From Roseibium sp. MMSF_3412 (GTDB lineage: Bacteria; Pseudomonadota; Alphaproteobacteria; Rhizobiales; Stappiaceae), in assembly GCF_030733265.1 (NCBI RefSeq), contig NZ_JASHJI010000001.1:558001-622000 (forward strand): DNA of 64,000 nt. Direction: 5' to 3'. The position numbers and the translations under genes were made by a program. Below are positions 8,190 through 44,273 of this stretch, piece by piece (positions within the stretch are counted from its first letter, which is position 1; each line of letters opens with the position of its first letter). Below the pieces are notes generated by a model, which worked only from the letters and a program-made list of their open reading frames with translations, had not been told where the DNA came from and searched no databases.

Positions 8190-8459
8190 CTAGGTGATGG
8201 ACTCGTAAATGAGACTGAAATGGCATGCGAAATGGCGAAATCCCGTTAGGAAGGGTGTGCGGAGCGGGCTTACTGCCCGGTCAAGCACGCTGACGACACG
8301 GGGTGAAGCCATTTCCATGTCCTTCGGATTTGCCCGGCCTGCTCCTCCTCGGCGTCGCGAAAGGCTTGAAAATGAAGCACATTTCCTGCGCTTCCGCTCC
8401 TTGACGAGAAGCAAGCTGCCTCAAACCATTTCCGCCTCATTTATGAGTACATCACCTAG
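8190..8459 (+). mobile_element. MITE-like element, copy 1 (270 bp, CTAG-bounded)
   Basis: The stretch begins and ends with CTAG and has terminal inverted repeats of about 34 bp with four mismatches (start CTAGGTGATG..., end ...CATCACCTAG). A second 270-bp copy lies inverted at 42387-42656 with roughly nine in ten identical positions by eye. There is no transposase. The CTAG at both ends may be a 4-bp target duplication, as some IS5-group elements make, or part of the element. It fills most of the 458-bp gap between the DUF3422 and GntR genes and ends about 105 bp before the GntR start. Confidence 0.8.
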
Positions 8460-8564
8460 GGTAGTCGCGTCACTCAGGGCCATGCTTGAGCACGATTGGA
8501 TAAAAAAATTGACCAATTGCGAAACAATGCCTATGGTGCGCCGAAACTCCGGGGACCTGAGAAC

Positions 8565-9341
8565 ATGTTTCAGCCTGTCGATCACCAGAAGACGGCCGAT
8601 GCCGCAGTTGAACAGATTGAAAACCTGATCCTGAAAGGTGTGCTGCGTTCGGGCGACCGGCTGCCTTCAGAACGGGACCTTGCCGAGCAGATGAAGGTGT
8701 CGCGGCCCGTGTTGCGGGATGCGCTGAAGACCCTCGAAGACCGCAGCCTGATCGAGGCGCGCCGCGGCGGTGGAACATTCGTCTGCGATCTCATCGGGCC
8801 GATATTCTCCGAAGCCATTATTGAGCTGATCGCGCGGCATCCATCTGCGATCAATGACTATTTCGAATTTCGCAGAGGCATTGAGGGCCAGGCCGCCGCC
8901 CAGGCGGCGATGCGCGCCGCCCCTTCCGATATCGAGCGTCTTGAGGGCATCGTTCGGCAGATGCACAGCGCGCACGAGGCGGAAGACGTAACCGAAGAAG
9001 CGCTGCTTGATGTCGATCTGCATCACGCGGTCGGTGAAGCTGCCCACAATGTCGTCATGCTGCATACGCTCCGCTCGTGTTACCGGCTTCTTGAAAACGG
9101 CGTCTTCTACAATCGCGGGCGGCTCTATCATCATCCGACGGCGCGCAGCGAATTGCTGCAGCAGCACAGCGCGATCGCCAGCGCCATTTGCGAGGCGGAT
9201 CCGGCCGGTGCACGCCGCGCCTCGGAAGAGCATATCGACTATGTGCGCGGCATGCTCAGTGAAGCCGAGCAACTCGATCAGCGGGAACGGCTGGCTGAAC
9301 TGCGGCGCGTCAAACCCATCAAGACATCTGCAAGATCCTGA
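8565..9341 (+). CDS. GntR-family (FadR/FCD) regulator of the adjacent lactate dehydrogenase
   Basis: The 258-residue protein has an N-terminal winged HTH (LRSGDRLPSERDLAEQ... SRPVLRDAL, about residues 28-55) and an FCD effector domain. The FCD metal-site residues are consistent with DVDLHHAV, HSAI and EEHIDYV. The start at the MFQPVD methionine has a GGGGA ribosome site. It lies 19 bp before an FMN-dependent 2-hydroxyacid dehydrogenase on the same strand, the arrangement of lldR-lldD, so it most likely senses lactate or a related hydroxyacid. The MITE-like element immediately upstream may have replaced part of its original promoter. Confidence 0.9.
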   Translation: MFQPVDHQKTADAAVEQIENLILKGVLRSGDRLPSERDLAEQMKVSRPVLRDALKTLEDRSLIEARRGGGTFVCDLIGPIFSEAIIELIARHPSAINDYFEFRRGIEGQAAAQAAMRAAPSDIERLEGIVRQMHSAHEAEDVTEEALLDVDLHHAVGEAAHNVVMLHTLRSCYRLLENGVFYNRGRLYHHPTARSELLQQHSAIASAICEADPAGARRASEEHIDYVRGMLSEAEQLDQRERLAELRRVKPIKTSARS

Positions 9342-17317: not shown

Positions 17318-19084
17318 TCACGCGATTCTGAACACGGTCAGCGGTTCGTCCCGGCCGCGCAACTTGACCTTTCCAAGGCTCACACCGCCGTAGCCTTCGG
17401 GTATCTGCGAGACCGTCTCGCCGCTCGCCAGGGCAATCACGCGGGCATGCGGATCAACCTCCTTGCCGTGTTCCTGCAACCGCGCGGCGACGTTGACCGC
17501 ATCTCCGATGACCGTGTAGTTCATGCGGGCCGTGGTCCCGATATCCCCGACGACCACCTTGCCGGTGTGAACGCCAATTCTGACCTGCATGTCGGCACCA
17601 TCACCCGCGTTGATCCGCGCGGCCAGGACTTCAACCGCGCGAATGGCCATGGCGGCATGATCCGGCTGGTCGGAGGGCGCGCCCCAGAACGCCATGACGC
17701 CGTCGCCGAGAAACTTGTCGATGGTGCCATCGCTCTCTGAAATCGCGCGGGATACCGTCTCGAAATAGGTGTTCAGGTAAGTGGCTGTTTCTTCGGGCGT
17801 GAGATGGGATGCCTTCCCGGTGAAGCCGGCAAGATCAGCGAAGACGATGGTCATCTCGCGCAGCTCGACGTTGCGCAAGCTGGTCATGCCTTCCTCGATC
17901 AGACGCGACACAAGCTGCCGGGGCACATATTTCGCAAACGCGTTGAGCGCGCCGATGGATCCGTTGAAGGCCTGGTTGACGTCGTCAAGTTCAGCAAGGC
18001 GGGAGCGCGGCAGGCGTTGTGCCTGGTCGAAGTTGAGCTGGCGAAGCTCGGCAGCCGCTGCGGCCAGGCGCGTGAGAGGGCGCCCGAGCATGCGCCCGAC
18101 AAGGAAGGACAGGATCGCGCCGACAATCAGCGCACCGAGAGCGACATAGAGCACGAGCCAGCTCTGATCGAGAACCGCGCCGAATTCACTGGCGCGATAA
18201 AGCGTACCGACAATCCATCCGCTTGCCGGGCCGCTCGTCACCTCGCTATAGATCGCGGTATACATGCCCTGGTCGGCGGGAAACAATCTGCCCTTGATAC
18301 CTTCTCCGAGGGTACGACTGCCCGGCTGGTCCTGCCAGAGCAGGTGAAGCGGTGTTCCGCTCAGGCTCGTCAGATCGGGAAGCACGGCGGCGGGCGTTGC
18401 TGCGAAGCGCTCTTCCGGCACACCGTCCACGGCAATTGCCTTGTCCGGACCGGCCAGGAGAAAGTTCCGCTGCCGGTCATCCCAGGACATGTCGCGCGCA
18501 AGGCGGGCAAACACTGTTTGCGGGAAATACCCGAGCAGGATCTGACCGTTGCCAAGGTCTATCTCCAGTTCCCTGACAGCCGTCGAAAAACCTTGCCGAT
18601 ACTTGAATTCCGACCAGCTTGGCTCCGGCAGTTGATCGGTCGGGGCCTGATCCAGCACCGCGCGCCCAAGATCAAGCTTCACGCCTTCGGGCAGAAGTTC
18701 CAGATAGGGTTCCAGGTCAGACGATGTCATCGCAGTGCCCGATTGCGCGGCATGGCTTGCAATCGACTGGAACAGGTGTTCCTGCCGGCTGAAGAAATTG
18801 TGCAGGACTTCCTCGTGCCCCTTGAGCACGGCGCGTCCCTGTTCGTTCAGCAGGCGTATGGCAATGCTGCGGTCGGAGGATGCCAGAAAGGCGATGATGG
18901 TCCCGCACAGGACCACAAGAGAGATGGAGAAGACGAGGCCGAGGGCGATGCCGACCGGAAGGCGAAACGGTCTTACCGCCCCGGATGGCTCCGCCGTCCC
19001 TGCAATGTTCCCACCCGGATGTTCCGTCAGCCCGCCAGCGCCGTTTTCAGCTCTTTTTTCCGGCGGGCGGATCTCCGCCCCCAT
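17318..19084 (-). CDS. Membrane-bound class III adenylate/guanylate cyclase with HAMP
   Basis: The 588-residue protein has a transmembrane helix at about residues 42-66, a periplasmic sensor region, a second helix near 320-342, a HAMP segment, and a C-terminal class III cyclase domain (about 405-585). Metal-binding aspartates are seen in IVFADLAGFTG and FLGDGVMAFWG, and the IGVHTGKVVVGDIG and GDAVNVAARLQ motifs are present. It makes a cyclic nucleotide, most likely cAMP, in response to an unknown periplasmic signal. The ribosome site GGAGA lies inside the last codons of rsmE, 3 bp between the genes, so translation is probably coupled. Confidence 0.9.
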   Translation of the reverse strand: MGAEIRPPEKRAENGAGGLTEHPGGNIAGTAEPSGAVRPFRLPVGIALGLVFSISLVVLCGTIIAFLASSDRSIAIRLLNEQGRAVLKGHEEVLHNFFSRQEHLFQSIASHAAQSGTAMTSSDLEPYLELLPEGVKLDLGRAVLDQAPTDQLPEPSWSEFKYRQGFSTAVRELEIDLGNGQILLGYFPQTVFARLARDMSWDDRQRNFLLAGPDKAIAVDGVPEERFAATPAAVLPDLTSLSGTPLHLLWQDQPGSRTLGEGIKGRLFPADQGMYTAIYSEVTSGPASGWIVGTLYRASEFGAVLDQSWLVLYVALGALIVGAILSFLVGRMLGRPLTRLAAAAAELRQLNFDQAQRLPRSRLAELDDVNQAFNGSIGALNAFAKYVPRQLVSRLIEEGMTSLRNVELREMTIVFADLAGFTGKASHLTPEETATYLNTYFETVSRAISESDGTIDKFLGDGVMAFWGAPSDQPDHAAMAIRAVEVLAARINAGDGADMQVRIGVHTGKVVVGDIGTTARMNYTVIGDAVNVAARLQEHGKEVDPHARVIALASGETVSQIPEGYGGVSLGKVKLRGRDEPLTVFRIA

Positions 19085-41685: not shown

Positions 41686-42390
41686 ATGAACCAGATCTTA
41701 CGTCCTTCGGATGCACGCGGCGATGCCGATTTCGGCTGGCTGAAAAGCAAGCACACCTTTTCGTTCGGCTCCTATTTCGATCCGAACCATATCGGCTTCG
41801 GAGCCCTGCGTGTGATCAACGAGGACCGGGTCGCGCCGTCCGGCGGGTTTCCGACCCATCCGCACCAGAACATGGAGATCATCTCCTATGTCGTTTCCGG
41901 CGGTCTGGAGCACAAGGATTCGCTCGGGACCGGCTCGGTCATCCGTCCGGGCGATCTTCAGCGCATGAGCGCCGGCACCGGCGTGCGCCACAGCGAATAC
42001 AACCACTCGGCCGCGGACCCCGTTCACTTTCTGCAGATCTGGATCGTGCCGGAAGCCGACGGTCTCGCGCCAAGTTACGAGCAGAAAGCGTTCCCGGAAA
42101 GCGAGCGCCAGGACACGCTCCGGCTGATCGGATCGCGCGACGGGCGCGAGGGGTCCGTGGTCATCCATCAGGATGTGGATCTCTATGCATCTCTTCTGTC
42201 CGCGGACAAAAGCGTTGCCTTCGACGTCCAACCCGGTCGAAAGGTCTGGCTGCAGATCGTCAAGGGCAAGATCAGTGTCGACGGCCAGGCGCTTGCCGCC
42301 GGTGACGGGCTCGGTCTTCTCGATGCCGGCACGATCAATCTGGCCGCGCAGGAAAACGCGGAATTTCTGCTTTTCGATCTGGCTGACTAG
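41686..42390 (+). CDS. Pirin-family bicupin
   Basis: The 234-residue protein has the pirin metal site His58/His60 (PTHPHQNMEI) and His102/Glu104 (GVRHSEYN), matching the YhhW-type bicupins, some of which have quercetin 2,3-dioxygenase activity in vitro. The physiological role is unknown; nuclear-receptor-like roles of human pirin do not carry over. The stop codon TAG is the last three bases of the CTAG end of the MITE-like element, so the C-terminus (…LLFDLAD) may have been set by the insertion. Confidence 0.92.
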   Translation: MNQILRPSDARGDADFGWLKSKHTFSFGSYFDPNHIGFGALRVINEDRVAPSGGFPTHPHQNMEIISYVVSGGLEHKDSLGTGSVIRPGDLQRMSAGTGVRHSEYNHSAADPVHFLQIWIVPEADGLAPSYEQKAFPESERQDTLRLIGSRDGREGSVVIHQDVDLYASLLSADKSVAFDVQPGRKVWLQIVKGKISVDGQALAAGDGLGLLDAGTINLAAQENAEFLLFDLAD

Positions 42391-42656
42391 GTGATGGTCT
42401 CATGAATGAGGCCGAAATGGTTTGAGGCGGCTTGCTTCTAATCAAGGCGCGAAAGCGCAGGAAATGTGGCGCATTTTCAAGCCTTTCGCAACGCGGAGGA
42501 GGAGCAAGCCGGTCAAATCCGAAGGACATGAAAATGGCTTCACCCCGTGGCGTCAGGGTGCTCGTCCGGGCAGAAAGCCCGCTCCACACACCCTTCCTAA
42601 CGGGATTTCGCCATTTCGCATGCCATTTCTGTCTCATTTATGGGTCCATCACCTGG
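42387..42656 (-). mobile_element. MITE-like element, copy 2 (270 bp, inverted to copy 1)
   Basis: This is the inverted counterpart of 8190-8459, of the same length and with roughly nine in ten identical positions by eye. Its left end is CTAG followed by GTGATGG and its right end CCATCAC followed by CTGG, so the second CTAG has one change. It holds no transposase. It begins inside the pirin stop codon and separates that gene from a hairpin at 42656-42688. The gap from 42391 to 42799 holds this element, that hairpin and a second hairpin before the next gene. Confidence 0.8.
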
Positions 42657-44196: not shown

Positions 44197-44273
44197 TGGT
44201 ACAGACGAGTGGATTCGAACCACCGACCTTCGGAGCCACAATCCGACGCTCTAACCAACTGAGCTACGTCTGC
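44197..44273 (-). tRNA. tRNA-His (GTG), noncanonical A73 without G-1
   Basis: The minus strand folds as a full cloverleaf: acceptor GCAGACG/CGTCTGT, D arm GCTC-AGTTGGTTA-GAGC, anticodon loop TTGTGGC with anticodon GTG, variable AGGTC, and T arm around TTCGAAT. The base at position 73 is A and the base before G1 is T, so the usual G-1:C73 pair of tRNA-His is missing. CCA is encoded. This form is known in several alphaproteobacterial lineages. Confidence 0.95.

Follow-up and report, generated by a model that had tools for sequence, protein, structure and literature searches.

The two 270-bp repeats that lie in opposite orientation in the window (the whole 64,000-nucleotide stretch of Roseibium sp. 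MMSF_3412 analysed here) are very probably copies of a gene-less mobile element, most plausibly moved by an IS5/IS427-type transposase into the TA of the target YTAR. Their placement in a MITE superfamily is well supported as to kind, and the mover is probably of the IS5/IS427 type. This explanation draws on dispersed copies, TA-in-YTAR borders, element-free sites in a sister species and an insertion sequence (IS) with a matching end, together with tips that vary and yet match within a copy, a conserved paired fold and sites at stop codons; from these sequence features we infer actual transposition by IS427-type enzymes. Near-constant length, a three-armed covarying fold, matched variable tips, one-end scars, turnover of sites and docking at stop codons take the element beyond an ordinary MITE. 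Not recognized in the initial annotation, a reading of the sequence alone, were the duplication of TA inside YTAR, the fold with its three arms, the variation of the tips, the sites at stop codons and the occurrence outside the genus.

Copy 1 (8190-8459) and its inverted mate, copy 2 (42387-42656), are 90% identical by BLAST over query bases 3-270, in keeping with the 91% estimated by eye in the initial annotation, whose positions, equal lengths and opposite orientations all hold. The ends of copy 1 match at 30 of 34 positions, which bears out the terminal inverted repeats of about 34 bp described there, and the element was rightly said to carry no gene: ORFs do extend into copy 1 (8209-8628, 139 aa), but none is gene-like. 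It thus has the terminal inverted repeats of a MITE, and likewise the short length without a transposase gene, measuring 270 bp with its target bases and 264 bp (GG...CC) as the element proper in copy 1. Copy 1 lies between a DUF3422 gene on one side and a GntR-family gene on the other, and copy 2 adjoins a pirin-family gene. The features in the window are as follows.

8190..8459, + strand: copy 1, whole; 306 bits with the R1 covariance model
8190 (Y), 8191-8192 (TA), 8193-8456 (element proper, GG...CC), 8457-8458 (TA), 8459 (R): layout of copy 1
8190..8223, + strand: left terminal repeat of copy 1 with target bases; tip GGTGATGG; helix 1
8426..8459, - strand: right terminal repeat of copy 1 with target bases; tip GGTGATGT, differing from the left tip by one base
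8224..8319, + strand: first arm of copy 1, alignment columns 35-130; apical hairpin CGGGC...GCCCG
8320..8328, + strand: small linker hairpin of copy 1, TCCTTCGGA, columns 131-139
8329..8425, + strand: second arm of copy 1, columns 140-236
42387..42656, - strand: copy 2, whole, in opposite orientation; 292 bits with R1
42387 (Y), 42388-42389 (TA), 42390-42653 (element proper), 42654-42655 (outer duplicate, reading TG): layout of copy 2
42527..42622, - strand: first arm of copy 2
42421..42517, - strand: second arm of copy 2
41686..42390, + strand: pirin-family gene of 234 aa; its end coincides with the copy 2 boundary
42388..42390, + strand: TAG stop of the pirin-family gene, formed of the duplicated TA and the first G of the element

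Copy 1 gave 63 BLAST matches in the home genome (6,235,100 bases, 34 contigs), which represent at least 41 places of at least 190 bp, a lower bound given that 40 of 107 first-look candidates were scored; the other 22 matches are short end-to-end cross-matches. A pattern search with the end motif returned 106 places with three or fewer mismatches, against one for the reversed pattern. Beyond the home genome, R1 matched 71 of 151 related genomes, in 20 of 65 genera. The 71 comprise 37 of the 45 genomes in the genus, 18 from the family's other genera and 16 from other families of the order; at most 13 candidates were scored per genome, so that copy numbers in relatives are lower bounds, and the E-values are rough. 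The matches in the 16 genomes of other families are by R1 score, and in other genera of the family the four loci read (L270, L271, L273, L276) have the same ends and length as the element. BLAST alone reached 20 of the 45 genus genomes, and the plasmid sequences searched contained no match to the element. A 3.5-kb stretch of genes showed 68-70% similarity, across 23-42% of its length, to listed plasmids of Shinella, Sinorhizobium and Paracoccus. The dispersal proposed in the initial annotation is therefore evident both at home and in many related genera. Length is nearly constant, 61 of the 63 copies in which both ends were found measuring 268-271 bp, with 28 of the 91 matched copies left out for want of both ends. 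Reduced forms were also encountered: near base 985 of L055 only the two ends survive, about 30 bp with the body gone, and L050 (1006-1168, 163 nt) and L051 (1006-1189, 184 nt) are elements without one arm. A sister family (L057, at about 92683-92952 of G000:C7; L058 and L237, at 17414-17683 of G000:C11; L145:1145-1414) has the ends GGTCATACCC or GGCCATGCCC, folds as the element does and scores 154-166 bits with R1.

CTAG does stand at three of the four ends in the window, as first described (42653-42656 reads CTGG), but it is really the YTAR target and not an end of the element itself. Among 45 near-full-length copies (26 from home and 19 from relatives, chosen for an intact TA on both sides, with partials and duplicate loci removed), the borders read CTA..TAG in 34, TTA..TAG in six and CTA..TAA in five, and TTAG never stands at both ends; copy 2, whose outer TA reads TG, falls outside this set, as do other copies with a decayed TA. 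Because TTAG is never found at both ends, it is TA and not YTAR that is duplicated, and a 4-bp duplication of CTAG was rejected given that TTAG..CTAG and CTAG..CTAA pairs are present and TTAG..TTAG is absent. These borders define YTAR as the target, TA as the duplicated part and GG...CC as the element proper, and the TG at 42654-42655 is probably a decayed TA. The element thus shows the target site duplication of a MITE, with outer bases that are always Y and R in the 45 TA-selected copies, and would have inserted at the TA of YTAR, mostly CTAG, with duplication of the TA. The rarity of CTAG was also correctly noted at the outset, as the tetranucleotide is depleted here (152 in 464 kb, or 0.33 per kb, 0.45 of the second-order Markov expectation), and dispersed gene-less copies with YTAR borders support the original proposal of a non-autonomous, MITE-like element with target choice.

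Insertion polymorphism between relatives, a further MITE feature alongside dispersal, emerged from searches with the joined flanks of home sites in the genus and in G042, a single-contig genome of a sister species and the nearest relative. Thirteen of 23 home sites were resolved in G042, ten without the element and three (L005, L016, L002) with a different family member; for the remaining ten, one flank, part of one or none was present. A single YTAR occupies the G042 site at L007, L022 and L024, and GTAG that at L017; the L003 site reads CTCAA there and CCTAA at home, some 11 left-end bases (TTAGGTGATGGACCC) survive at the L009 site, as does the right end GGTCCATCACCTAG at the L032 site. The initial annotation had looked to empty sites with a single CTAG; a single YTAR was seen at the three sites named but not for the window copies, neither of which has a clean single YTAR at its own G042 site: the junction has diverged for copy 2, as it has for L010, and at the copy 1 site GGTGATGG lies within a diverged stretch, where it may be a scar. 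In the reverse direction, five G042 sites were searched at home: L071 is contiguous save for eight additional bases resembling a scar, L066 is contiguous with no YTAR, L064 has a sister-family element, 79% alike, and L063 and L068 were not placed. Loss by deletion that leaves one end behind could account for such scars. The mobile reading would have been weakened, as first framed, by a lack of other copies or by the same sequence at both syntenic positions in relatives with coding-like conservation; copies are many, and 10 of the 13 resolved G042 sites are without the element.

As to the mover, the initial annotation had suggested a transposase of the IS5 or IS630 group, of which the IS5 half finds support, in that IS5 elements of relatives have ends of the same design, and the IS630 half does not, the 30 loci of that type that were fetched having no matching ends of their own. 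The ends point to an IS5-family, IS427-group transposase as the likely mover. DUF4096 matches occur in 32 of the 45 genus genomes, and the candidate partner L159, in genome G036, measures 838 bp with the CTAG at either side included (832 bp proper) and contains a 120-aa ORF (DUF4096) and an overlapping 142-aa ORF (DDE_Tnp_1), both of which match NCBIfam IS5_3 over the cut-off. In the accessible text of the source, the IS427 group of IS5 in Paracoccus is described as 832-865 bp long with mostly 2-bp direct repeats, its members having two overlapping ORFs with a frameshift motif (PMC3281130); frameshifting would similarly join the two transposase ORFs here. The element is akin to this group in end design and TA duplication, and its candidate partner in its 832 bp and two overlapping ORFs, but it has no ORF of its own and a body unrelated to the IS. 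For the autonomous transposase with the same ends that the initial annotation proposed looking for, L159, from another species, is a similar but not identical candidate: its right end equals the left end of copy 1 at 15 of 15 bases (12 of the element and three of the target), its left end differs (GGTGACGCCG), and none was found at home. The element and the IS have only some 12-20 end bases in common, similarity between their bodies being limited to short, chance-level pieces, and the two element-family members examined in G036 have other tips (GGGTACGG and GGGCACGG). The second transposase ORF of L159 stops in the TAG of its own border (L159:2230-2252), and the target may thus supply the stop codon of this transposase.

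A scan of 39 IS5 loci for inverted ends anchored at TA yielded a pair in 12 and none in 27, among the latter L159, its two ends being unlike. Nine of the 12 pairs (at eight distinct places) follow an ACYCAT-type plan, namely GG, a variable stretch, and ACYCAT or nearly so; the other three follow another. An IS427-type transposase would on this model recognize a terminal repeat with a variable tip of 7-8 bases, followed by ACYCATAAAT... The tip GGGTCCAGAC is common to one end of the L163 IS and the L270 element, a match that could be due to chance, the variable stretch being five bases; and a single CTAG is shared at L145 between an IS5 element and one of the sister family. A body and fold conserved over many genera is unusual in a mere deletion derivative of an IS. 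No match to DDE_3, DDE_Tnp_1 (IS5/IS4), DUF4096 or the L159 DDE ORF was detected in the home genome, nor to DDE_3, DUF4096 or the L159 ORF in G042. Because no such transposase is detectable at home, the home copies look stranded or moved from outside, and their present mobility is unsupported, the transposase being absent from both the home and the G042 searches.

The element's TA target and TA duplication would also suit the IS630/Tc1 group, of which TA duplication is typical; a DDE_3 match was obtained in 20 of the 45 genus genomes, and some such elements end at TA or CTAG. A transposase of that type, as proposed for RUP, would come from an element with GGTGATGGACYCATAAAT ends, and is a very unlikely mover: DDE_3 profile matches are absent from the home genome and G042, not one of the 30 DDE_3 loci retrieved from the genus bears ends of its own that match, the nearest end match (L115, five mismatches) belongs to an adjoining IS5-type frame, and the second (L142) is weak at six mismatches. 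An IS630-type, RUP-like MITE was rejected likewise, no IS630 element among those 30 loci having such ends. Within the genus, the IS630-type elements L113, L114 and L117 carry inverted ends, GAGCGTTTC for example, that lie at TA or CTAG.

The tip, defined as the first 8 bases of the element, differs between subfamilies (GGTGATGG, GGGTACGG, GGGTGCGG, GGGTGTGG, GGTGACGG, GGGCGTAA and others) and agrees between the ends of a copy, being identical at both in 53 of 98 copies and different at no more than two bases in 95. Mean mismatch within a copy is 0.84, against 2.44 in shuffles of which the lowest gave 1.89 (n=63, a count that includes L066 and L025, whose ends were wrongly found); L034 has mixed tips, GGGTACGG and GGTGATGG. 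Among 37 home copies, 12 double changes are private to one copy, against a shuffle mean of 2.5 (maximum 7); four of these, at target positions 1-3 of decayed copies, may be alignment artefacts, which leaves eight, and the shuffle mean refers to all 12. According to the accessible parts of two sources, template switching between inverted-repeat arms homogenizes the arms and inverts the spacer (PMC8604942), and creates and maintains hairpins (PMC8794818). Template switching between the repeat arms during replication may then both maintain the pairing and invert the element in place, an account that would cover the inverted element of the L005 site too.

The consensus fold consists of a terminal stem and two arms separated by a small hairpin. 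The folds of copies 1 and 2 are far stronger than those of their shuffles (z -8.3, -8.8 and -7.8), and the sister family, with a different sequence and the ends GGTCATACC, has the same shape (z -12.2). Thirty-one copies, hand-picked for diversity among those with both ends found (alignment A1), align over 270 columns with few gaps; helix 1 is 95.3% paired in them, and paired cells overall amount to 97.1%, compared with 90.4% when shuffled and 30-41% when slid. Double changes affect 31 of 91 pairs, in 190 cells against 66.5 shuffled, where the shuffle control ignores relatedness, and the slide control keeps relatedness but is biased towards a structure that was itself derived from these sequences. 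A model-fitted alignment (A2, 97 distinct rows) gives 547 double-change cells against 163, with the caveat that it leans towards the structure of the model to which it was fitted.

Such pairing might instead mark an element that is in the main a structured RNA module, made as part of the transcript of the gene at whose stop codon it lies and acting as terminator, stabilizer or RNase III target, with mobility secondary. The z-scores, the covariation and the shape common to the sister family are all in keeping with this, as is the frequent position of the element directly 3' of stop codons, and RNase III processing has been proposed for NEMIS transcripts (PMC2229807, accessible text). We nevertheless consider it improbable. 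Selection on one RNA strand should raise G-U above C-A, and the outcome of this test is non-uniform: arm one has the excess expected of RNA (125 cells against 19 C-A) and fits the RNA reading, but the balance is reversed by cells for the terminal stem (68 against 94) and for arm two (33 against 50); all pairs together give 231 against 164 by cells and, with no bias, 61 against 59 by pair type. Genes, moreover, adjoin the element at either end, and 10 of the 13 resolved sister-species sites do without it. No known RNA family was recognized, as no Rfam model matched the element at gathering score and the best sub-threshold match was a microRNA (E 2.5). The only Rfam match at gathering score within the window is a tRNA gene at 44200-44273 on the - strand.

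Insertion by the mobile element frequently coincides with gene ends. With ORFs counted from 150 codons upwards, 25 of the 45 copies coincide with the stop codon of an adjacent ORF, compared with 27 of 128 unoccupied CTAG sites (Fisher p 4.6e-5); the corresponding counts are 28/45 against 39/128 for ORFs of at least 100 codons, and 22/45 against 18/128 for at least 200. Conversely, six of the 45 copies, and 60 of the 128 background CTAG sites, fall inside ORFs. The pirin-family gene beside copy 2 illustrates the outcome, since its G042 counterpart lacks the element and has TAA as its stop, at the equivalent codon (...FDLAA*, against ...FDLAD* at home). As the element begins with G from either end, a struck TAG or TAA would become TAG, and the protein would be unchanged and the insertion would persist. 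Much of the stop-codon pattern is accounted for by the distribution of CTAG together with selection. Active targeting of 3' gene ends, in place of rare CTAG sites and selection, is favoured by the share at stop codons outside long ORFs, which does exceed background (25/39 against 27/68, Fisher p 0.017). With in-gene sites set aside, however, the excess is modest, and home copies alone give 14/22 against 27/68 (p 0.083); ORF length was the only criterion for calling genes, the copies are non-independent, and the element sites include TTAG and CTAA where the background is CTAG only. We accordingly regard active targeting as unlikely.

Together these observations permit a more speculative joint reading, which we advance as a possibility and would not call probable. 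A superfamily of three-armed DNA parasites of about 270 bp, spread across an alphaproteobacterial order and without a transposase of its own, might switch between borrowed IS5-type enzymes: a mutation in one tip would be copied to the other end by hairpin template switching, so that a new transposase could adopt the same body, while the same process would invert elements in place and keep the fold without RNA function, and insertion that regenerates TAG would hide copies in stop codons. If true, this would provide a bacterial case in which compensatory changes possibly arise from the mutation process and not from RNA function, with a bearing on the use of covariation to prove that an RNA is functional; a testable explanation of how a gene-less transposon can switch transposase and yet keep its body; and a target preference that makes insertion at stop codons silent for the protein. 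In practice, one covariance model can annotate these repeats across related genera.

Several known repeats invite comparison. The RIME elements of rhizobia are palindromic intergenic repeats of related bacteria, and the element is likened to them by description only. ERIC/IRU, RUP and Correia/NEMIS are also small repeats with TA ends and an end-pairing stem, as far as the accessible text describes them (PMC2229807); compared by description, the present element is about twice as long, three-armed, and has IS5/IS427-type ends with subfamily-variable tips. The CIR repeats of Caulobacter and Brucella, from the same accessible text, are alphaproteobacterial intergenic repeats with two arms, a linker and TA ends, about 110 bp long, with no terminal inverted repeats and with GANTC conserved (PMC2229807). 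Membership in CIR was rejected, since our element is 270 bp long and has a terminal stem, its ends pairing over 34 bases, and GANTC is not conserved, 52 of 98 copies having none at either end. In the mainly open-access literature consulted, and as far as its accessible text extends, we found no report of the element or of stop-codon docking by IS5-type MITEs, and the terms 'stop codon' and 'Rhizobi' are absent from the accessible text of a 2024 review of prokaryotic MITEs (PMC10969869).

Two further observations concern relatives of the element. In G042, at the site of home copy L002 (locus L230), a family-1 element lies inside a sister-family element and has a right end of the sister-family type, an arrangement both nested and mosaic. 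Finally, a repeat beginning GGATCAGGACTTATTAATTTGG adjoins the element in the right flank of L023 and recurs in G042 (for example at 6041391-6041660), where a stretch of up to 90 bases of it is found at at least 25 places among the matches listed; R1 gave 172 bits at the one place retrieved, and this repeat seems to be another branch of the element's superfamily.
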